Shown here one piece after another: positions 37,070 through 46,213 of a stretch of 64,000 nt of DNA (positions are counted from its first letter, which is position 1; each line of letters begins with the position of its first letter). This DNA comes from Acidobacteriaceae bacterium (GTDB lineage: Bacteria > Acidobacteriota > Terriglobia > Terriglobales > Acidobacteriaceae). Position numbers and translations under genes: made by a program. The stretch is from the NCBI GenBank assembly GCA_025350325.1, contig JANXYB010000062.1, forward strand, positions 1-64,000, given 5' to 3'. A model generated the notes under the pieces. The model was not told where the DNA came from. It saw only the letters and a program-made list of their open reading frames with translations, and searched no databases.

Positions 37070-37228
37070 GCTTGTCCGAACTTGTACGCAATTGAAGCAT
37101 CCGATCGCAGCGAAATATACAGCACCCGATGCGAAACGATAAGATAGCCAGTCCACGCCTTTCGGGTGCTTGCTTGCGATCAAGCAATGTGCGACTGGGT
37201 GGAATACTTCATGCCAGAGGAATCACAC

Positions 37229-39127
37229 ATGTGTCTCTCCATCGTTCGCTCGTTCCCAATCACTTCCCTGCTATTTATTCCGGTCACTCGGGGGCTTGCG
37301 AGCATTCTGCTTCTATGTACATCGATTCCTCTTTTGGCGGCTGCCGTTGCATACGGGCAGAATGCACCAATCGTTTTAACCAGTGCTGACCGGCGTCTTG
37401 CGACCTCGCTCAACGGCGAGTGGAGTTCGATTGTCGATCCCTATTTCTCTGGACTGTTCAGTTTTCATCACGAAGAAAAAAAGAATGGATGGTTTCTGAA
37501 TCAGAAGGCAAAGCCCGGAGACCCATTTCCGATCGAGTATGACTATGCTAAGGCACCGAAGCTCAAAGTGCCGGGTGACTGGAACACGCAACGGGAGTCG
37601 CTACTCTACTACGAAGGTCCTATCTGGTATGAGCGTGACTTTGCCTTTCAGCCAAAAGAGCACTCGCATGTCTTTCTGCATGTAGGCGCAGCTAACTATC
37701 ACTCATGGTTCTGGATCAACGGTAAGAAGATTTGCGAACACGATGGTGGATTCACTTCCTTTAACTGTGAAGTAACATCCGCCATTCATGCGGGTAGCAA
37801 CTTTATTGTTGCAGCAGTCGATAACACGCGCCGCGAAGACAACGTTCCCACCCTTGAAACCGATTGGTGGAACTATGGCGGTTTGACGCGCGAGATATCG
37901 CTGATCGAAGTGCCGGAAGCTTTTATCGACCAATTCGATCTCCACCTGGGCAAGGCCGAAGGGAAAGATGAAAACCACTTGGTAATCGAAGGTTGGGTTC
38001 ACGTAATCGGTGGCAAGGCCGGCGAGAATACCGAAGTTCAGATTCCCGAGTTAGGCGCGAAGACCAGCGCCGCGATAGGCGCGGATGGTCGTGCTGCATT
38101 TCACTTCAACGTGAATAGCTTGCAGCGCTGGTCGCCTGAATCGCCGAAGCTTTATAAAGTGGCTTTACGCCTGGGGATGGACTCCATTGAGGAACTGATG
38201 GGTTTTCGTACCGTGGAAGCCCGCGGCACGCAGATTCTACTCAACGGAAAGCCCATCTTTTTGCGCGGCATTTCGATCCACGCAGAAGCGCCTTATCGTA
38301 CTGGTCGCGCCTACTCACACAAGGATGCCGAGACACTGCTTGGCTGGGCCAAAGAGCTTGGATGTAACTTCGTTCGCCTCGCACATTACCCGCATGATGA
38401 GACCATGCTGCGCGCAGCGGATCGCATGGGTTTGCTGGTATGGTCGGAAAACCCGGTATATTGGGCGCTGCAATTCGATAACCCTAAAGTGTTGGCCAAG
38501 GCCGAGCAGCAGTTAGACGAAGAGATAGGAACATCGCGCAATCATGCGGCTATCATCCTCTGGTCGATGGCCAACGAAACGCCGAACACTCCGGCTCGCA
38601 CTCAATTCATAACTACTCTGGCCGAGCGCGCGCGGGCGTTGGACCCTTCGCGTCTGATTACCGCTGCACTGCTGGTGCGCGCGGATGGACACACCAAGAT
38701 CGTGGACGACCAGTTAGGCAAGGCGCTCGATGTTATCGGCGTCAATGAATACATCGGCTGGTATGAGCAGCATCCTGAAACAGCGGATGTAACGGATTGG
38801 CGTATCGAATACCAGAAGCCGCTCATTGTGAGCGAGTTTGGCGGGGATGCAAAGTTCGGCCTGCATGGCGGTGAAAATGATCGCTGGACCGAGGAGTACC
38901 AAGCAAATATTTTCCGCCATCAGTTACCCATGCTCAACCGCATCCCGCAACTTAGGGGCGTGAGTCCGTGGATACTTATGGATTTCCGTTCACCCAACAG
39001 GCCATTAGTCGGAGTGCAGGACGAGTTCAATCGCAAAGGCCTGATCTCTGACCAAGGCCAGAAGAAACAAGCGTTCTTCATTTTGCAGAAGGCATACAAA
39101 GAGGGTACCGTGGGTAAAGCGGAATAA
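37229..39127 (+). CDS. Glycoside hydrolase family 2 protein (beta-glucuronidase/beta-galactosidase-like), exported
   Basis: The protein of about 632 residues has the GH2 architecture: sugar-binding sandwich (GDWNTQRESLLYYEGPIWYER, split over a short gap), an immunoglobulin-like middle domain and a TIM barrel. WSMANETPN carries the acid/base Glu and LIVSEFGGDA the nucleophile Glu; GISIHAEAPYRTGRAYSHKD and NFVRLAHYPHDE are typical of beta-glucuronidase-type members. The start is uncertain: the ATG at 37229 follows AGAGGAA, while starts at 37211 or 37166 would lengthen a hydrophobic N-terminus that looks like a signal peptide. The substrate is not assigned. It is monocistronic. Confidence 0.85.
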   Translation: MCLSIVRSFPITSLLFIPVTRGLASILLLCTSIPLLAAAVAYGQNAPIVLTSADRRLATSLNGEWSSIVDPYFSGLFSFHHEEKKNGWFLNQKAKPGDPFPIEYDYAKAPKLKVPGDWNTQRESLLYYEGPIWYERDFAFQPKEHSHVFLHVGAANYHSWFWINGKKICEHDGGFTSFNCEVTSAIHAGSNFIVAAVDNTRREDNVPTLETDWWNYGGLTREISLIEVPEAFIDQFDLHLGKAEGKDENHLVIEGWVHVIGGKAGENTEVQIPELGAKTSAAIGADGRAAFHFNVNSLQRWSPESPKLYKVALRLGMDSIEELMGFRTVEARGTQILLNGKPIFLRGISIHAEAPYRTGRAYSHKDAETLLGWAKELGCNFVRLAHYPHDETMLRAADRMGLLVWSENPVYWALQFDNPKVLAKAEQQLDEEIGTSRNHAAIILWSMANETPNTPARTQFITTLAERARALDPSRLITAALLVRADGHTKIVDDQLGKALDVIGVNEYIGWYEQHPETADVTDWRIEYQKPLIVSEFGGDAKFGLHGGENDRWTEEYQANIFRHQLPMLNRIPQLRGVSPWILMDFRSPNRPLVGVQDEFNRKGLISDQGQKKQAFFILQKAYKEGTVGKAE

Positions 39128-39197
39128 ATCCATCAGTGAAGCGCGGCATAAGTCGACCCAGTTAGGAATCAGCGCTGACTTGAGGTATCCTCTGCTT

Positions 39198-39428
39198 ATG
39201 ACGATTGATTCCATTCTCGCCCAGATTGATGCTGAAATTACAAGACTGACAGAGGTCCGCAACTTGCTCGCAGGTACAGGCAAAGTTGGCCCTGCAGTTA
39301 TCGAACGCAAGACAAGAAAGATTGCAGTCAAGACGCACAAGAAGCGTGTGTTGAGTGCTGAGGCACGCAAGCGCATAGCCGATGCGCAGCGCAAACGCTG
39401 GGCAGCGCAAAAAGCTAAAGCTAAATAA
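39198..39428 (+). CDS. Small basic protein with a KRIADAQRKRWAAQK-type tail
   Basis: From the ATG at 39198 this is a 76-residue protein. Residues 1-25 form a likely short coiled coil (MTIDSILAQIDAEITRLTEV). The rest is very basic, ending with LSAEARKRIADAQRKRWAAQ and a Lys/Ala tail. Short proteins with this A/R/K tail recur in several soil bacteria and are suggestive of nucleic-acid binding, but no function is established. The gene is alone between the GH2 gene and a convergent gene. Confidence 0.6.
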   Translation: MTIDSILAQIDAEITRLTEVRNLLAGTGKVGPAVIERKTRKIAVKTHKKRVLSAEARKRIADAQRKRWAAQKAKAK

Positions 39429-39492: not shown

Positions 39493-39696
39493 TTATTGCT
39501 TGTCCGATGGTTGCACAGGATCATCGCGGCGAAATTGTGCAAGCGCTGATGATGCGTTATCAGTCCTCTGCGATTGGCCACGATTGCCGTCTCTTGTCGA
39601 CTGGCTACGCACATTTTGCATCTGATTCTGAAAGCGAAAAAAAGAGGATCCACCGCTGACTCGCTGTGGATCACCAAGTCTCAACAGCCAAGACAT
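39493..39696 (-). CDS. Possible small downstream ORF (uncertain)
   Basis: A 67-residue frame starts 26 bases inside the end of the upstream regulator-like gene, with AGGG about 8 bases before its ATG. The product is rich in Ser, Gln, Arg and Asp (RDGNRGQSQRTDNASSA) and ends QPSDKQ. It has no recognisable similarity, so it may be spurious. Confidence 0.2.
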   Translation of the reverse strand: MSWLLRLGDPQRVSGGSSFFRFQNQMQNVRSQSTRDGNRGQSQRTDNASSALAQFRRDDPVQPSDKQ

Positions 39697-40960
39697 TCGG
39701 CGGCCCTGAATGGCCTTCTATAACTTGTGTTTCGATCACGGCTTCCATGCTTTTCTTTTCCCAATTGGCCGGCGCTTTGGCTAACAGTGAATCTAGATAC
39801 ACCGGGTTATAAAGCACCTCTCCGGCAGCCTCGGTTCCTTCTTCCGAAATTCCCGCTGCAATGATTACGGGCTGGCCGGTGGTGCTGTCATAAATGCGCG
39901 CGACGATCGCGTAATCGCGGGACAGTTTCTGGTAAGGAAGATCCCATGCAGTGGCCCATGTCGTTTTCTTGTTACTCTTGCGATCCACGATCAGCGCGAC
40001 TCCATCCTTCGACTCGAAGCCGAAACGTAGTTTCTGGGTCACGCGAAGTGTCCATATATTGTCGAACGCACCGATGAGGACGATAGGGCCTTCGCGGAGT
40101 TGCGCGAAACTGGCTTCAGAGGCAGGCACCACGCGGAACGTCTTGTGTCGAGCTTCGAGTGCCGCGGCCGTCCTTGTCAGCGTAATTACATCGGCAAGTG
40201 CCAGGTTCCCCGATAAATGCAGCCGCACGTAAAGCTGTTGCGGCGGTGCGGGGCGACCGACCGGCGCGTCGAGGGAGTTGATTGAGTCCATGTCGATGTT
40301 CTTCGCCGGCTCCCCAAGGCAAAAGGTCGCTGGATTTGCGCTGGCGGTAAACGGCTCCCAGAAACGATCAATACTGGTGGGCGGCTGTACCGCAGGGGCG
40401 GGTCGATAATGTGAGCCGATCACCACACCGGCTAGGCACATGCCCAGGGCGAGAGCGGGGATCCAGAGCAATTTCCATCGATGCGGCTTCGTTTGTTGGG
40501 CAAGCGGCGCCCCGGCATTCGGTGGCAGTTCCGATTGATCCACTTCCGGTTCCGGCAACACAACATTCGGTTCGGGGGCACGTTCGGGCGCGTGAAAGAC
40601 CGGAAGATATGAGCCGATCGGAAGCTCGATTATTATCTCGCCGTCATGGGTGGGATCGTAATAGTAAAGGCTCAGGCGCTTGCGCACTTCGCCAGCGGTG
40701 ATGCGGACTACGGGATCAGCATTGGCGTCGTAGCTCGTGCAGCGTCCAAAAACTTCCACTCCAATGCTGCGCTCTTTCAACTCAGCGCCGTTGCCCAGCA
40801 GGGTTTGTTCGACGACGTAAGCCAGCAAGGCGGGATACCGCTTGCTGTTTGCGAACAAGGGATGGATAAGAAGTCGAGCTAGTTGGGCGCGGACCGCAAC
40901 CCCATCGAAGGCGAGTGGCGATTGCTCCATCTCTTGTAGGGACTTCGGCGCCACCGCCAT
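39671..40960 (-). CDS. Regulator-like membrane protein with N-terminal domain common in Acidobacteriota
   Basis: The 429-residue protein begins (about 20-125) with a domain often seen in Acidobacteriota and related groups: RYPALLAYVVEQTLLG, LKERSIGVEVFGR, YDANADPVVRITAGEVRKRL, LYYYDPTHDGEIIIELPIGSY. It looks like a winged-helix or transcription-regulator-like module. A proline-rich linker, one membrane helix (about 165-185, LLWIPALALGMCLAGVVIG) and a C-terminal domain follow. In that domain segments such as VVPASEASFAQLREGPIVLIGAFDN recur in relatives. AAGGAG lies 5 bases before the ATG. A membrane-bound one-component sensor is plausible but unproven. Confidence 0.65.
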   Translation of the reverse strand: MAVAPKSLQEMEQSPLAFDGVAVRAQLARLLIHPLFANSKRYPALLAYVVEQTLLGNGAELKERSIGVEVFGRCTSYDANADPVVRITAGEVRKRLSLYYYDPTHDGEIIIELPIGSYLPVFHAPERAPEPNVVLPEPEVDQSELPPNAGAPLAQQTKPHRWKLLWIPALALGMCLAGVVIGSHYRPAPAVQPPTSIDRFWEPFTASANPATFCLGEPAKNIDMDSINSLDAPVGRPAPPQQLYVRLHLSGNLALADVITLTRTAAALEARHKTFRVVPASEASFAQLREGPIVLIGAFDNIWTLRVTQKLRFGFESKDGVALIVDRKSNKKTTWATAWDLPYQKLSRDYAIVARIYDSTTGQPVIIAAGISEEGTEAAGEVLYNPVYLDSLLAKAPANWEKKSMEAVIETQVIEGHSGPPNVLAVETW

Positions 40961-41299
40961 CGTAACTCCTTGATTGGCTCTAAATCCCTAAAGGGGCAAA
41001 TCGCTCGCGCGAGTCACTGGAGCGCTGGCTGCACTGGCCAAGGCACCCGCAACTTCCTCATCGCTTATGCAGTGAAAGAAACGTGGGGCGAAGAGCTAAA
41101 CCAATCAAAGATCGATGCTCGCCCATTAGCAGCTTGGGTACAAATCTCCGCGCCTGACGGGTTCGACTCCCCGCATTGCGTATCATACGTCCCATTTATT
41201 CTATTGTCCATATCAGAAAAGCCTCATTGGAATCAACAACTAGGCCTTAAAACACTGGTCGCTACCCGATGGAACCTATTGTTAAAATCCGTTGCAGCA

Positions 41300-41305
41300 T
41301 ATATT
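41300..41305 (+). promoter_or_regulatory. Putative -10 box of the candidate small RNA
   Basis: TATATT matches five of six bases of the sigma-70 -10 consensus and would start transcription near 41312, just before the first hairpin. A weak -35 (TTGTTA) lies 15 bases upstream, which is short spacing. Confidence 0.3.
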
Positions 41306-41311
41306 CGCAAT

Positions 41312-41439
41312 CGGTCCAGAAAACGTATCCGGTGGGTTTCGACCCCAGGGCCGTTTTCTTGTGATTGCGGCTCCTCGCCCCTTCGGTTTACCAGACCTGG
41401 ATCGCATTCAGGCAGGACTAACCGGGGGGCGCTTTTTTT
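41312..41439 (+). ncRNA. Candidate structured small RNA (about 128 nt)
   Basis: The 5' part holds AGAAAACG (41318-41325) pairing with CGTTTTCT (41352-41359). Between them is a GGGT-TTCG-ACCC tetraloop hairpin (41334-41345). The 3' part is a strong intrinsic terminator. Putative start site, upstream structure and terminator all lie within about 130 bases on a strand where no flanking gene is transcribed. The 5' end is inferred from one -10-like box. Known Acidobacteria-specific RNA motifs (for example Acido-1) are candidates, but I cannot test membership. Confidence 0.45.
41376..41439 (+). terminator. Strong plus-strand intrinsic terminator without a known gene
   Basis: CGCCCC.TCGGTT (41376-41388) pairs with AACCGGGGGGCG (41420-41431) over 12 positions with one bulge and one wobble. 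The loop carries an inner CCTG/CAGG hairpin. Seven T residues follow at 41433-41439. Confidence 0.7.
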
Positions 41440-41597
41440 GTCCGTACTGCCGACTACACAGTAGCGAGAAGAGACGCCCTCATCAGGCCTAAGCTGGCAG
41501 AGGGCTGCACATCGCCGCTTTGAGGGCGCCTTAGGCCAATCGCACCGGTCCCCCCTCGACAAGCACGCAGCAAATCAACAGACGCGGTGCAGCTTGT

Positions 41598-44276
41598 TCA
41601 GTTGGAGCGAAGCGCCGTCATGGGATTAATGCGCGAGGCGCGATAGGCAGGAATGTAACCTGAGATCGCAGCAACCAGCAACAATCCCAGGGCCATTGCG
41701 ACGAACGTTTCCAGGTCCCATGGCGCGGTGGCGAACAACTGCGAAGCGATCATCCTCGACACAAACAGCGAAGCCGCTGCACCCAGCGCGACGCCGATGA
41801 TTGCCAGTCGCAAGGTGCCGGCAAGCACCTGCCGCTGCACCTGGCCCATACCGGCGCCAAGGGCCATGCGAATCCCGATCTCCTGCGTCTGACGTGTCAC
41901 CGAGTAAGAGATCACGCCATAGATTCCGAGTGCAGCGAGTATCAGACCAAGCGTGGCAAACGACGCCACCAGCATCATAAAAAAACGTCTTGGTGAATTC
42001 GCATGCTCGACGAGCATTTGAATCGGACGAAATTCCGCAGCGGGCTGCTTTGGATTGATTGCGCGCAAGGTGCGCATCACGCTGTTAGACAGAACGGCAG
42101 GGGGTAGATTGGTTCGCAGCACAAGTTGCGCGCCGCTCGAGGCCTGCTGTGCAGCAGAGTAGTAGATCTGCCACCCGGCCTGGCCCTCAACACTCTCTTC
42201 GTGTACGTCATCCGCAACGCCGATGATGCGAAGGTCTTGGCCGCCGCTAGTGATCGTCTGACCAATTGCTCCATTGGGCCACCCGGCCAAGCTCGAGATA
42301 AACCGAGCATAGGATTGATTAATGATTACAACGTTTTCACTTTTAGGACCGTCATCCCACGTAAAGTCGCGCCCGACAACCCTGGTTCCCATTGCGCGAA
42401 GATACCCCCGTGTGACCACATAAACGAGCGGCCCCGCAGGCGCCTTCTCGGGCGGCTTGACGCCCTTGGGGTACGGGGTTCCCCAGGCACGATTCTGGCC
42501 CAGAGGCAGATAGTCCGTAATGCCCGCAGCATCGACCCCCGGGATTGCACTCACCCGCGAAAGCACTTGCTGGAAGATGGCAGTGCGCTTGAGCGCGCCG
42601 GCCAACGGCGTGGGGGCTGAGTCGTCGTAATCCATCTTGACGGCGGCCGCCCGGTCAGGCTGGAAGCCGAGATCCACCTCGAGCACTTTGAGGAAGCTGC
42701 GTAGCAGCAGCCCCGCGCCTACCAGCAGCACGCATGCCAATGCGACTTCGGTAACTACGAGAACAGCGCGCACCCGCTCATGCTTGCGTCCGTGGCCTGA
42801 TCCGGGGCCAGAGTCCTTGAGCGCCTCCTGCACGTTATTGCCGGCCATGCGCAATCCAGGCACGAGGCCAAAGAAGACGGCTGCGAACACCGCGATAAGC
42901 ACAGTCCAACCCAGTGCCGCGCCATCAATCCGCAACGTATCGAGCAGCGGAAGAGCGATCGAGCCCTGGTGTGCGAGCCATGTGATCAACGCAAATGCCA
43001 ATCCCAGGCCTACCAATGCGCCGGCTCCGGAGAGCATCAGGCTTTCGGTGAGCAGCTGGCGGACGATGCGCATGCGGCTGGCGCCGAGAGCGCCGCGCAT
43101 GGCGAATTCTTTTGAGCGGGCGGCGGCCCGTGCCAGCAGCAGATTCGACAGATTTACGCATGCGATGAGCAGAATAGCGCCGACGGCGGACCACAGCAGC
43201 ACCAGCGAGCGATTCAATTTTCCGCTGATATAGGTTTTGAGCGGGACGGGCACGACGGCATCTTTGTACTGTCCACACGATTGCGGCTGTTTGTTGTTCC
43301 AACACATGTGCGGCGCGGCCGCCTGCGCGTCTGCTTGTGCTTGAGCAAGCGAGACGCCGGCCTTGAGGCGTCCGATGAAGGTGATGATGTTTCCCCAATC
43401 GCGCGGCGGCCCATAAAGATCGAGTGGGGTGATGGCGTCGACCTTGGTTCCCGGCGCGAATACGGCACCGAAATCGAAACTGGCCGGGAGCACGCCTATC
43501 ACGGTGGTCTGTTTTCCATTCATGTCGAATGCTTTGCCAACGATGTTGGGGTCAGCGGCGAATTGCCGCTTCCACCACGGATTGGTGAGCAGGACTACGG
43601 GAGGCGCGCCGTCCCGCGCGTCGTCCGCAGTAAAGGTGCGACCCATGGCCGCATGCACGCCGAGCACTTGGAAGAAGTTGGCGATCACGTCAATGCTGGT
43701 GGCTGGGATGGGCACCCCGCCGCGATTCAAACTCAGGTTGTCGGCGCTCGAGAATGCGAAATACCCCGTTACATCCTGGTACGAACGGCTGTACATGCGG
43801 AACTCATCGTATGCATCTGCCGAGTACGTCGCGCATGACATGCCGCACTTGGTCGGCGGAGGTGCGATCCAGACCAATTGCTCCGCGCGTGCAAAAGGCA
43901 GCGGACGCAGCAGCAGCGTGTTCACAACGCTGAAGACGGAGACATTGGCGCCGATGGCAAGCGCCAGAATCAACACAGCGACGATGGTGAATCCGGGGTC
44001 GCGGCCCAGCGTGCGCAGCGCGTACTTTAAATCCAGCAGCAATATGTCGAGTTTCATAAGTCCTCGCGCCTCGCGGTGTTGATCTTTCGCTTGCTCCATC
44101 CCGCCGAGGCTTACCAGCGCCACGCGCCGTGCTTCAACGGCAGACAGTCCGCGTGCCATGTTGTCTTCAATGGCGAGTTCGAGATGGGCGGCCAACTCAG
44201 CCTCGAGATCCGCATCGTGCGAAGGCTTGCTCGCAAAGGCGCGCAGCCGTTTGAGCAACCTCCTGATCTCGCTCAT
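41598..44276 (-). CDS. ADOP-family (acidobacterial duplicated orphan permease) ABC transporter permease
   Basis: This 892-residue membrane protein has the ADOP layout. A cytoplasmic N-terminal domain (about 1-90, LEAELAAHLELAIEDNMARGLS) is followed by two MacB-like halves. The first has a membrane helix (FTIVAVLILALAIGANVSVFS), a MacB periplasmic core domain and an FtsX domain (VGAILLIACVNLSNLLLARAA). The second repeats this, ending in another FtsX segment (ALGIYGVISYSVTRQTQEIGIRMALG). No ATPase gene is adjacent, as the family name implies. Its start overlaps the PadR stop by four bases (ATGA). By analogy with MacB it may handle envelope export or mechanotransmission. Confidence 0.93.
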   Translation of the reverse strand: MSEIRRLLKRLRAFASKPSHDADLEAELAAHLELAIEDNMARGLSAVEARRVALVSLGGMEQAKDQHREARGLMKLDILLLDLKYALRTLGRDPGFTIVAVLILALAIGANVSVFSVVNTLLLRPLPFARAEQLVWIAPPPTKCGMSCATYSADAYDEFRMYSRSYQDVTGYFAFSSADNLSLNRGGVPIPATSIDVIANFFQVLGVHAAMGRTFTADDARDGAPPVVLLTNPWWKRQFAADPNIVGKAFDMNGKQTTVIGVLPASFDFGAVFAPGTKVDAITPLDLYGPPRDWGNIITFIGRLKAGVSLAQAQADAQAAAPHMCWNNKQPQSCGQYKDAVVPVPLKTYISGKLNRSLVLLWSAVGAILLIACVNLSNLLLARAAARSKEFAMRGALGASRMRIVRQLLTESLMLSGAGALVGLGLAFALITWLAHQGSIALPLLDTLRIDGAALGWTVLIAVFAAVFFGLVPGLRMAGNNVQEALKDSGPGSGHGRKHERVRAVLVVTEVALACVLLVGAGLLLRSFLKVLEVDLGFQPDRAAAVKMDYDDSAPTPLAGALKRTAIFQQVLSRVSAIPGVDAAGITDYLPLGQNRAWGTPYPKGVKPPEKAPAGPLVYVVTRGYLRAMGTRVVGRDFTWDDGPKSENVVIINQSYARFISSLAGWPNGAIGQTITSGGQDLRIIGVADDVHEESVEGQAGWQIYYSAAQQASSGAQLVLRTNLPPAVLSNSVMRTLRAINPKQPAAEFRPIQMLVEHANSPRRFFMMLVASFATLGLILAALGIYGVISYSVTRQTQEIGIRMALGAGMGQVQRQVLAGTLRLAIIGVALGAAASLFVSRMIASQLFATAPWDLETFVAMALGLLLVAAISGYIPAYRASRINPMTALRSN

Positions 44277-44626
44277 GCCCCACCCGTTTCGGTGTCTTTG
44301 CCCATATCAAACAGCCGATCCATCACGCCGGTGAGTCGCTCCCAGTAGCGTGTATCGGCAGCGAGTTGGCGCTTTCCGGCGGCTGTGATGGTATAGAACT
44401 TCGCTTTGCGGTTGTTGTCCGAAGTGCCCCAACTTGACGCAATCCAGCCGCGCTGCTCAAGTCGCACCAAGGCAGCATATATCGTGCCCTGATTAAGCAT
44501 GACTTCGTTGCCGCTGACCTGTTCAATACGCCGGGCAATGCCGTAACCGTGCAAGGGCCCCATTGAGGCCAAGGTCTGCAACACCATCAGGTCGAGCGTG
44601 CCCTGCAAAAGGTCCAGCTTAGCCAA
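44273..44626 (-). CDS. PadR family transcriptional regulator (ADOP-associated)
   Basis: PadR proteins are winged-helix repressors. From the TTG at 44626 the 117-residue product starts LAKLDLLQGTLDLMVLQTL (first residue read as Met), with an AGGAG site 8 bases upstream. An in-frame GTG at 44635 overlaps that site and is less likely. Helix-turn-helix motifs include LHGYGIARRIEQVSG and LNQGTIYAALVRLEQRGWI, with wing residues SSWGTSDNNRKAKFYTIT. The stop overlaps the ADOP start, so it probably controls that operon. Confidence 0.93.
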   Translation of the reverse strand: MAKLDLLQGTLDLMVLQTLASMGPLHGYGIARRIEQVSGNEVMLNQGTIYAALVRLEQRGWIASSWGTSDNNRKAKFYTITAAGKRQLAADTRYWERLTGVMDRLFDMGKDTETGGA

Positions 44627-45076
44627 AGGTCGCACTCCTGTGGTATGACCACATTAGAATGACACAGATCCATATGGCATTGAGAGAGGAATTTTTCCTT
44701 CGGAGAGGCTTTGGGGATGTAACCGCCACAAAACTGCTGACAACCCCCAATCTTCAATGAGAAGCTTCTGCTCGACACCAATTAAGTTCTAAACTGCAAG
44801 CAGTTGCGTTATATCGAACCAATAGCCGAGCGAATCAGCATTACTTGCCGATAGGATTACTGCGAAAAGAAGGTTTGTACTTCGCATCAATTCACAGTCG
44901 GAATGGGCACGCAAAAGGTAGCGTCGACAGTCTCGGATCTAATGCAGTCAATATTCACCGGATCTCGGTTGACTATGCTTCCTTCCTGGCAATGACAATA
45001 GCGAACGCATATCAGGCTAAAGAAGGTCGCGTGCCTGCGAGCGACGATTTGTGACCGAAAACTGGAGGCTAATCTT
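44627..45076. other. Divergent intergenic region
   Basis: This 450-base gap lies between padR and the histidine kinase gene. It should hold both promoters, but none is clear. A plus-strand frame at 44845-45054 with a TTG start lacks recognisable similarity and is not called. Confidence 0.3.
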
Positions 45077-46213
45077 ATGTCCCCTGCCCTTATGCCACAC
45101 GCTATCTGCTGGAGACAGGATCAACGTCTCATATGGACCATGGTGATCAGTAATGCGATCACCTTTCTCAGCTATTCCACTATCTGCTTCACTCTGATCT
45201 ATCTGGTGCGCAAGACACGCCAAGCCGTTTCTCGAGATTGGGCGTTGTTTTTAGTTGGCTTCGCGTTGTTCATCATCGCTTGCGGTTCGACCCACCTGAT
45301 GAAAGTAATGACCACTTGGATACCGATTTTCTGGGTCGATGCCTGGACCAATATCGTCACCGCAATTCTTTCGGGATACGTCGCAATCCAGCTTATCCGC
45401 CGTGCACCGGAGCTAGGATTTGGCATCAATGACTACGCCGCACGGCTGGCAAACTCCCAGATCGAAAAGGCGCGCATGGAGGAAAGCCTTTTGTCGGCCA
45501 GAAAGCTGGAAGAATGGAATCAGATGTCGGCCGTGGTGACGCATGAGATCAACAACCCGCTGGCCGCAATTCAGAATTTGTTGTACCTGATTTCGGAATC
45601 TCCGGAAATTTCGCCCGCAGTGGCCGCTATGGCACAGCAGTCGACTGAAGAAGTTCGTCGCATCGCGACGCTCACCCGCTCGAACCTCGACTTTTTCCGC
45701 CAAGACCGAGATCCAGGTCAAGTCGATCTTCTCGCGTCGGCAGAGTCGGTGCGATTCCTTCTCAATCCCCTCATACGCCAACGCGGCGTTGAGTATTTAG
45801 TCCAGAGTGCAGGCGATTGCAAAGTCACTGCGTTCGCGATGGAAACGCGGCAGGTGCTGCTCAATCTGGTCCGCAACGCGTGTGAAGCGACAACCCATCG
45901 CGGCGGCCAGGTGCGCGTCACGATGCAAGGTGGACCTGCTTCAGTCAACATCCAAGTGGCAGACGAGGGAGCCGGAGTTTCCCCGTCGATCATTTCAAAT
46001 TTGTTTCAGTTTGGTGTCAGCAGCAAGGGCGACCAAGGAAATGGGATGGGCCTGTGGGCCGTCAAGAAGATCATCTCGCGCCATGGAGGGACGATCGAGG
46101 TCGAATCAAAACTTGGCGGCGGGACCCGCTTCACAATTGTTTGGCCTCGCCAATTTCCACCAAGCGTAGTACTCCCAGAGAATGTAGTTGCGATAGCCGC
46201 CGGCTCAGCTTAA
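45077..46213 (+). CDS. Orphan sensor histidine kinase with ethylene-receptor (ETR1)-like membrane domain
   Basis: The 378-residue protein has three membrane helices (about 20-44, 54-76 and 85-108). They align with the ethylene-binding domain of plant ETR1 and cyanobacterial Etr1: ISNAITFLSYSTI and FALFIIACGSTHL correspond to ISDFFIALAYFSI and FGAFIVLCGATHL. Cys69 and His73 match the copper ligands Cys65/His69, and Tyr33 matches Tyr32; Asp25 is replaced by Asn26. A HisKA domain has His156 in VVTHEINNPLAAIQNLLYL. The HATPase domain has NLVRNACEA, DEGAGVS and GNGMGLWAVKKI. No GAF domain or neighbouring response regulator is present. The start follows CTGGAGG by 8 bases. Its 3' end overlaps the convergent SDR gene by four bases. 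Confidence 0.85.
   Translation: MSPALMPHAICWRQDQRLIWTMVISNAITFLSYSTICFTLIYLVRKTRQAVSRDWALFLVGFALFIIACGSTHLMKVMTTWIPIFWVDAWTNIVTAILSGYVAIQLIRRAPELGFGINDYAARLANSQIEKARMEESLLSARKLEEWNQMSAVVTHEINNPLAAIQNLLYLISESPEISPAVAAMAQQSTEEVRRIATLTRSNLDFFRQDRDPGQVDLLASAESVRFLLNPLIRQRGVEYLVQSAGDCKVTAFAMETRQVLLNLVRNACEATTHRGGQVRVTMQGGPASVNIQVADEGAGVSPSIISNLFQFGVSSKGDQGNGMGLWAVKKIISRHGGTIEVESKLGGGTRFTIVWPRQFPPSVVLPENVVAIAAGSA

Follow-up and report, generated by a model that had tools for sequence, protein, structure and literature searches.

The window, meaning the whole stretch of 64,000 nucleotides that was analyzed, contains a predicted small RNA of about 127 nt on the plus strand (41313 to 41439), which is supported by covariation and by homologues. 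Both ends are predictions; the 5′ end should lie at 41313 or within about 2 nt of it, and the 3′ end inside the U tract. Head-to-head with the RNA, on the minus strand, lies its upstream neighbor, a gene for a protein of 429 aa (39671 to 40960), and this arrangement was found in 30 of the 31 RNA loci. The nearest clear plus-strand gene upstream encodes a glycoside hydrolase of family 2 (37166 to 39127). It ends about 2.2 kb away, and thus the upstream region of more than 3 kb without a plus-strand gene, of which a preliminary description of this DNA had spoken, does not exist.

The RNA is composed of two hairpins and a short linker. The 5′ arm (CGGTCCAGAAAACG, 41312 to 41325, helix 1 of the fitted alignment) and the 3′ arm (CGTTTTCTTGTGATTG, 41352 to 41367, placed by alignment and covariation) of the outer stem P1 enclose a variable apical region (41326 to 41351), which has 26 nt in the window versus about 60 nt in most relatives. 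A C/U-rich linker (CGGCTCCT, 41368 to 41375) lies between both hairpins; it is anti-Shine-Dalgarno-like and a candidate seed. The intrinsic terminator follows at 41376 to 41439 and has a stem (41376–41388/41420–41431), an inner hairpin, and a U tract (41433 to 41439). Several of these elements had been noted in the preliminary description, and the strong terminator with its seven T, the TATATT sequence at 41300 to 41305, and the compact stem, in which AGAAAACG (41318 to 41325) and CGTTTTCT (41352 to 41359) flank GGGU-UUCG-ACCC, could all be located. The TTCG hairpin is likewise present in the window, but its place is the variable apical region, and relatives have not kept it.

Folding of the single sequence gave a limited signal. 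The region from 41290 to 41445 folded at −57.1 kcal/mol, versus −48.4 kcal/mol (sd 3.9) for shuffled sequences (z = −2.2), and three of 200 shuffles folded as well; the fold includes the compact stem and the TTCG hairpin. As the z-score was only −2.2, the case rests on comparison. A terminator scan of the window yielded 12 terminators versus 11.4 in shuffles and thus no excess, and the terminator of the RNA was missing from the list because its loop exceeds the 8-nt limit of the scan. The bare 129-nt RNA of the window takes a different minimum-energy fold, which lacks the P1 hairpin, and inclusion of the flanks restores the shape.

The distribution of the RNA was analyzed at several taxonomic levels. 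BLASTN with positions 41250 to 41450 against 60 genomes, 35 of them from other members of the genus (the Occallatibacter/Terracidiphilus lineage), revealed clear homologues (E ≤ 1e-7) in 12 other genus genomes, and in the closest homologues the conservation spans about 41165 to 41441. A covariance model (R1) was built from 13 sequences and detected the RNA in 28 of 80 genus genomes, the own genome included, with one strong copy each; no further copies were found in the own genome. In a sample of the family (300 genomes, 79 genera) R1 identified 12 carriers, nine of them genus members and three belonging to a second genus, g54, with scores of 40–44 bits. The order sample (150 genomes) contributed eight genus members and one 20-bit match, and the phylum sample (297 genomes) two genus members and one 20-bit match (G606). 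Two candidates, L061 (16.9 bits) and L062 (G182, 20 bits), were judged on the alignment not to be homologous. Two antisense matches to the terminator hairpin (25.8 and 24.3 bits) had entered alignment A2, which was excluded from all counts. The most diverged copy of the genus is that of G075 (57 bits). An exact 21-mer of the RNA occurred in 23 stretches of a public genome collection, all with Acidobacteria-type titles, including Occallatibacter savannae AB23, Acidobacteria bacterium AB60, and two Terracidiphilus metagenome-assembled genomes (MAGs). Terracidiphilus gabretensis has been transferred to Occallatibacter (PMC12935467).

The predicted shape is shared by nearly all copies. In 25 of the 28 genus copies and all three g54 copies, the minimum-energy fold begins with a long 5′ hairpin, from which a short linker leads to the terminator hairpin; the P1 hairpin was absent from the single-sequence fold in three genus copies (the window, L052, and L059). 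The outer stem is formed by the extreme 5′ end, CGGTCCAGAAAATG, which pairs with CATTTTCTTGTGATTG, and the conserved parts of the RNA are this stem, the linker, and the terminator. In the g54 copies other bases build the outer stem and the terminator is shorter; the position of the linker is unchanged.

Compensatory changes were quantified with two alignments. The unfitted MAFFT alignment A3 comprised 27 distinct genus copies (L047, identical to L046, was left out here and in A5). Both sides were changed in 14 of its 40 pairs, versus 8.8 (sd 1.7) in shuffles; 2 of 500 shuffles reached this number and none of 500 reached the covariation score. The number of further pair types was not above that of shuffles and was reached by 74 of 500. 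In alignment A5, to which g54 had been added, 15 of 33 pairs changed on both sides and 97.0% of the cells were paired (0 of 500 shuffles). Helix 1 (P1) contributed 14 pairs, with 99.0% of the cells paired and four pairs changed on both sides, and in helix 2, the terminator, 7 of 10 pairs had changed on both sides. A5 was fitted to the model, and therefore its covariation leans towards the structure, which is not true for the unfitted A3. At least five consecutive T follow the 3′ stem in all 27 rows of A3. The longest conserved run, 28 consecutive bases that are invariant in 13 sequences, lies inside the RNA; the divergent promoter is over 140 nt away. Judged from the aligned copies, the helices of the RNA are kept through compensatory changes, which were found in both outer stems, and the conservation in relatives that the preliminary description had asked for is thus present.

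No Rfam family matched the RNA. A cmscan search of the whole 64-kb window with 4227 Rfam families yielded no match at the gathering thresholds, and between 40900 and 41700 there was no match even at E ≤ 10 (6S, Acido-1, and Acido-Lenti-1 included). Therefore, the RNA does not match Acido-1 or Acido-Lenti-1, the two families for which a comparison had been proposed. Searches for tRNA and tmRNA genes found none, and a plasmid search gave no match. A small protein was also considered and rejected: in the 31 copies the longest open reading frame within the RNA has at most 38 codons and differs between relatives, and single-base insertions and deletions occur in conserved parts of the RNA. A description of this RNA was not found in a literature search of open-licence papers. 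In 31 genomes from two genera the sequence is conserved and the stems covary, which supports the proposed independent structured RNA of about 130 nt; its occurrence in two Acidobacteriota genera without an Rfam match agrees with the suggestion that it is specific for Acidobacteria or new. The locus almost certainly encodes a real, structured, stand-alone RNA, and an Acidobacteriota RNA family is thereby added that is absent from Rfam.

Two features go beyond the earlier reading of the single sequence, i.e., the fixed pairing with the divergent gene and a conserved promoter layout. Regions from the window and from 20 of the other 27 carriers were compared, and in 20 of these 21 a homologue of the divergent gene lies directly upstream. 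By coordinates, the gene adjoins the RNA in 27 of the 28 genus carriers and, with 59–65% identity, in all three g54 loci. The sole exception is G075, which has an RNA copy without the regulator and without the promoter elements. For the 52 genus genomes in which the RNA was not detected, the listed matches included a close orthologue (at least 60% identity) only in G064 and G076, and that of G076 is an 86-aa piece at a contig edge. The G064 locus contains a decayed remnant with an RNA-like 5′ end and without the 3′ half, and it has kept the palindrome and a degenerate box, described below, beside the regulator orthologue (65%). Apparently, the RNA decayed in G064 while the regulator stayed. 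The association of RNA and orthologue was strong in a Fisher test that ignores relatedness (p = 7e-18). Distant paralogues (57% identity and lower) are common in genus genomes, and the upstream regions of 19 regulator paralogues, three of which were short, did not contain the RNA (best score 8.2 bits with filters off). These data make it very probable that the RNA is functionally coupled to the divergent gene. Start codons in the comparisons of neighborhoods, of linker pairing, and of downstream genes were taken from a crude ORF caller.

Two observations on the protein family may be added here. One genus genome (G102) yielded 20 paralogue matches at E ≤ 1e-20. In G091 (L082/L118) the regulator orthologue contains one in-frame TGA near its start, for which a pseudogene, a later start, and an assembly error are possibilities.

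The intergenic region contains the same elements at nearly fixed spacing in 30 of the 31 loci. TATATT (41300 to 41305, plus strand) is the −10-like element of the predicted RNA promoter, and TAnnnT occurs at this place in 30 of 31 loci. Its first base precedes the GGTCC of stem P1 by 12–13 nt, and therefore the start of transcription is predicted at about the first base of the stem. With this element at a fixed distance and an intrinsic terminator of its own, the RNA has the signals of a separate transcription unit. A conserved box (TACCCGATGGAACCT, 41263 to 41277, plus strand) is located 22 nt before the −10 element, at about −49 to −35, and is a putative activator site. Across the loci, a TACCCGATnnAACCT-like box is found 21–23 nt before TAnnnT (L054 was counted as a carrier, with a 22-nt gap, from the alignment). 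A conserved −35 element of the RNA promoter was not seen in the aligned loci, and this together with the position of the box would fit an activator-dependent promoter. Among 12 genomes, exact matches to TACCCGATNNAACCT were present in 10, in each case only at the RNA locus; the box has one mismatch at the G009 locus and two at the G060 locus. Other matches with one mismatch numbered 25 in the 12 genomes, versus 21 for the reversed pattern.

On the opposite side, a sigma-70-type promoter is predicted for the regulator gene (41182 to 41210, minus strand), with TGGACA (41210–41205), a spacer of 17 nt, and TATGAT (41187–41182). Minus-strand TRGACA and TATNAT, separated by 17 nt (18 nt in one case), are present in 30 of 31 loci. 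In g54, the −10 element ends 15–21 nt before the start codon of the regulator, a position that supports its role as the promoter of the regulator gene. A palindrome (GCGTATCATACGT, 41178 to 41190, assigned to neither strand) covers this −10 element and is a putative operator; across the loci the palindromes are of the type CGTATNATACG, with the divergent −10 inside. Of 19 paralogues, 7 have related palindromes in the 300 nt before the gene, with 8 matches in total versus 0.57 expected by shuffling, and none occurred in 18.5 kb of sequence farther upstream, which suggests a family-wide operator.

The divergent gene encodes a protein that had no match in Pfam or NCBIfam, and no sequence in the PDB is related to it. 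No Pfam family matched more than one of 42 relatives. An AlphaFold2 model based on these 42 relatives (mean pLDDT 85.4) contains an N-terminal domain, a helix (residues 166–184), and a C-terminal alpha/beta domain. The helix lies between two folded parts, is hydrophobic by eye, and is predicted to span the membrane. The structure alignments A4 and A6 include paralogues (36–54% identity over the whole protein); they exclude L118, with the in-frame TGA, and some orthologues that are nearly identical. Modelled alone, the N-terminal domain reached a pLDDT of 94.2. Its top match in Foldseek was the DNA-binding domain of SaeR (E = 0.16). In a structure comparison, 18 of the best 21 rows were DNA-binding domains of the OmpR/PhoB family (Z 5.5–7.9), including GlnR, which we take to be a member of this family; the remaining three were ScpA/ScpB. 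The best row was PrrA (Z 7.9, rmsd 3.4, 84 residues), and a Z-score under 8 falls short of proof of the fold. With the whole protein as query, no Foldseek match reached E ≤ 0.001 (best BcsB, 2.1e-3). The rows are consistent with one another, and together with the order in which helices and hairpin follow each other this speaks for a winged helix; according to the model the N-terminal domain is a probable OmpR/PhoB-type winged helix. ToxR and CadC are membrane-bound one-component regulators, and the partner of the RNA is probably a regulator in their manner, in which a probable OmpR-type winged helix in the cytoplasm would be linked through one membrane helix to an outer domain. In contrast to ToxR and CadC, the window protein lacks a Pfam or NCBIfam match and a sequence relative in the PDB, and it has many paralogues in the genus. 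It thus represents a multi-paralogue family of putative membrane winged-helix proteins for which the protein libraries searched hold no model.

The linker was analyzed as the candidate site of base pairing. GGCTCCT is present in 27 of the 28 genus copies and is changed in G075, and the linker of g54 is one C shorter (GCGGCTCTCGCCCC). Its mean unpaired probability was at least 0.8 in 20 of 27 copies and below 0.8 in seven, and the RNA of the window had the lowest value (0.32). Sites complementary to the linker were not clearly enriched genome-wide (460 versus 434 for a reversed-pattern control among the matches listed for 12 genomes, RNA genes included). Pairing of the linker with the start regions of regulator genes had a mean of −21.6 kcal/mol, versus −18.4 kcal/mol for other genes (p = 0.003; 18 versus 70 genes of comparable Shine-Dalgarno strength, the regulator sequences being mutually related). 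The window's own pairing was ordinary, and 36% of 187 controls were as good. Many ribosome-binding sites of regulator genes contain AGGAGCC or GAGCC...AAGGAG, which are complementary to GGCUCCU; AGGAGCC is absent from the g54 regulator start regions. The Shine-Dalgarno sites of the regulator genes surpass those of the whole control set in strength, a confounder that was partly removed by matching. Hfq was encoded in all seven genomes tested.

The comparison yielded a conserved, covarying RNA with a terminator, a fixed linkage to one gene, and a fixed promoter layout. We infer that the RNA is transcribed, that its partner controls it, and that it acts by base pairing, and the targets and the signal are likewise inferred. 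The best explanation, which we consider likely, is a stand-alone small RNA with its own promoter and terminator that is controlled by the divergent membrane winged-helix regulator. The outer domain of the regulator would sense an envelope signal. Its OmpR-type domain would bind the TACCCGATnnAACCT box upstream of the −10-only promoter and activate the RNA, and it may bind the palindrome over its own −10 element and thereby limit its own expression; both steps are suggested by the conserved layout. Control of RNA transcription by the divergent regulator is, on this evidence from sequences, likely as well. In the RNA, a long hairpin would form besides the terminator hairpin, with helices that covariation supports, and the GCGGCUCCU linker is predicted to be exposed between both hairpins. 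Target mRNAs could then be bound by the linker at their ribosome-binding sites, probably with the help of Hfq, and action by base pairing is a rather likely mode. The mRNA of the regulator itself is possibly among the targets, as a feedback, which we regard as doubtful.

The evidence was also weighed for other readings of the locus. If the conserved block were the control region of the regulator gene, closed by an insulating terminator and devoid of a functional RNA, the palindrome on the −10 element of the regulator and a box between both promoters would be readily explained. However, the position of the longest invariant run, inside the RNA and far from the divergent promoter, and the covariation of the stems as RNA helices make this very unlikely. 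A cis-acting leader, i.e., an attenuator or riboswitch of a downstream plus-strand gene, often a glycoside hydrolase of family 3, would account for the plus-strand gene of cluster 5 that follows the RNA in 11 of 21 regions (10 of 21 in a stricter count, with called starts 29–196 nt past the RNA), and one representative of this cluster was identified as a family-3 glycoside hydrolase. Yet the next large gene is encoded on the minus strand in five of the 21 regions, the window included, and a minus-strand gene also lies downstream in both of the g54 loci inspected (of three), L157 (an aldehyde dehydrogenase according to Pfam) and L158 (a similar ORF by eye). Over the 21 regions, 15 downstream genes were on the plus strand, five on the minus strand, and one was lacking, and they belong to several families. 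The conserved co-directional downstream gene that was looked for in these regions was not found, the constant neighbor is the upstream divergent gene, and a leader is thus highly improbable.

Binding of a protein, e.g., sequestration of a regulator or of RNA polymerase, with the divergent gene as regulator or target, is a further possible function of a stand-alone RNA. The long stable hairpin, the strong conservation of the stem sequence as well as the linker, and the lack of a clear genome-wide enrichment of complementary sites are in agreement with it. An unpaired C/U-rich linker beside a U-tract terminator is the usual arrangement of base-pairing small RNAs, and the nearly invariant, mostly unpaired linker found here, the presence of Hfq, and the fact that neither 6S nor any further Rfam family was matched at E ≤ 10 argue against protein binding, which we consider unlikely. 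That the RNA is a feedback RNA, with the mRNA of the divergent regulator as its main or only target, could be concluded from the complementary motifs at many regulator ribosome-binding sites and from the mean pairing, which was stronger than in matched controls. However, the complementarity is missing from some loci, the value for the window is ordinary, AGGAGCC is lacking in the g54 start regions, and the strong Shine-Dalgarno sites of the regulator genes are a confounder that matching removed in part; this possibility is quite unlikely.

Returning to the small RNA under control of the membrane regulator, an exact box was present only at the RNA locus in the genomes searched, and therefore the RNA could be the main output of the regulator. 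We tentatively propose that regulator and RNA form a dedicated two-part signalling unit, with the RNA perhaps as the main regulator output. If so, an envelope signal would be carried directly into post-transcriptional control. Other members of the regulator family, which has many paralogues, may control additional circuits in this phylum.

The divergent pair of a regulator and a small RNA is a known arrangement. OxyR, GcvA, and SgrR control their small RNAs OxyS, GcvB, and SgrS, and the SgrR and GcvA arrangements are divergent like that of OxyR. We know of no sequence relation of the present locus to these three pairs. It resembles them in that a small RNA with its own promoter and intrinsic terminator lies head-to-head with a DNA-binding regulator, and oxyR-oxyS has been described as the classic case of a divergent regulator and non-coding RNA (PMC7967276). 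In contrast to these enterobacterial pairs, the regulator is here predicted to be membrane-anchored, with a probable OmpR-type domain, and the control is one that we infer. In Sinorhizobium meliloti, the neighboring regulator LsrB binds the AbcR1 promoter and is needed for AbcR1 expression (PMC8844928). The similar lengths of the small RNAs (121 and 114 nt) and a synteny that is kept across the clade are common features (PMC8844928), whereas LsrB is a LysR-type regulator and organism and genes are different. Small RNAs of the NfeR1 type likewise have a stretch that is able to pair with ribosome-binding sites (PMC8844928), but as described there they contain three identical anti-Shine-Dalgarno motifs, in contrast to the one linker found here, which is not strictly kept in g54. 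Acido-1 (RF01686) and Acido-Lenti-1 (RF01687) are, like the present RNA, candidate stand-alone structured RNAs of Acidobacteria (PMC2864571), and differ from it in that cmscan matched it to neither.

Acidobacteriota are abundant in soils. In a 2022 review, only four distinct annotated small RNAs are given for this phylum (PMC9029176). The locus supplies a small RNA together with its likely regulator, promoter elements, and a fold. As the RNA is present in named strains, e.g., Occallatibacter savannae AB23, the model is directly testable.

Some neighboring genes deserve mention. A small basic ORF of 82 aa without a Pfam match is present upstream (39180 to 39428, plus strand), and visual inspection of the G075 locus (L059/L079) showed a similar coding sequence that ends immediately before the RNA copy, which is displaced and diverged there. 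Downstream of the RNA, an ADOP-family duplicated permease is encoded together with an acidobacterial PadR-type regulator (41598 to 44276 and 44273 to 44635, minus strand), and the window is the only one of the 21 regions in which the RNA is followed by this permease as the next large gene. Farther downstream, a histidine kinase gene is found at 45077 to 46213 (plus strand). A member of its cluster is the next gene after the RNA in two of the 21 regions (L065 and L067), and the cluster mate in L067 matches ETR1_N, the N-terminal domain of ethylene receptors.
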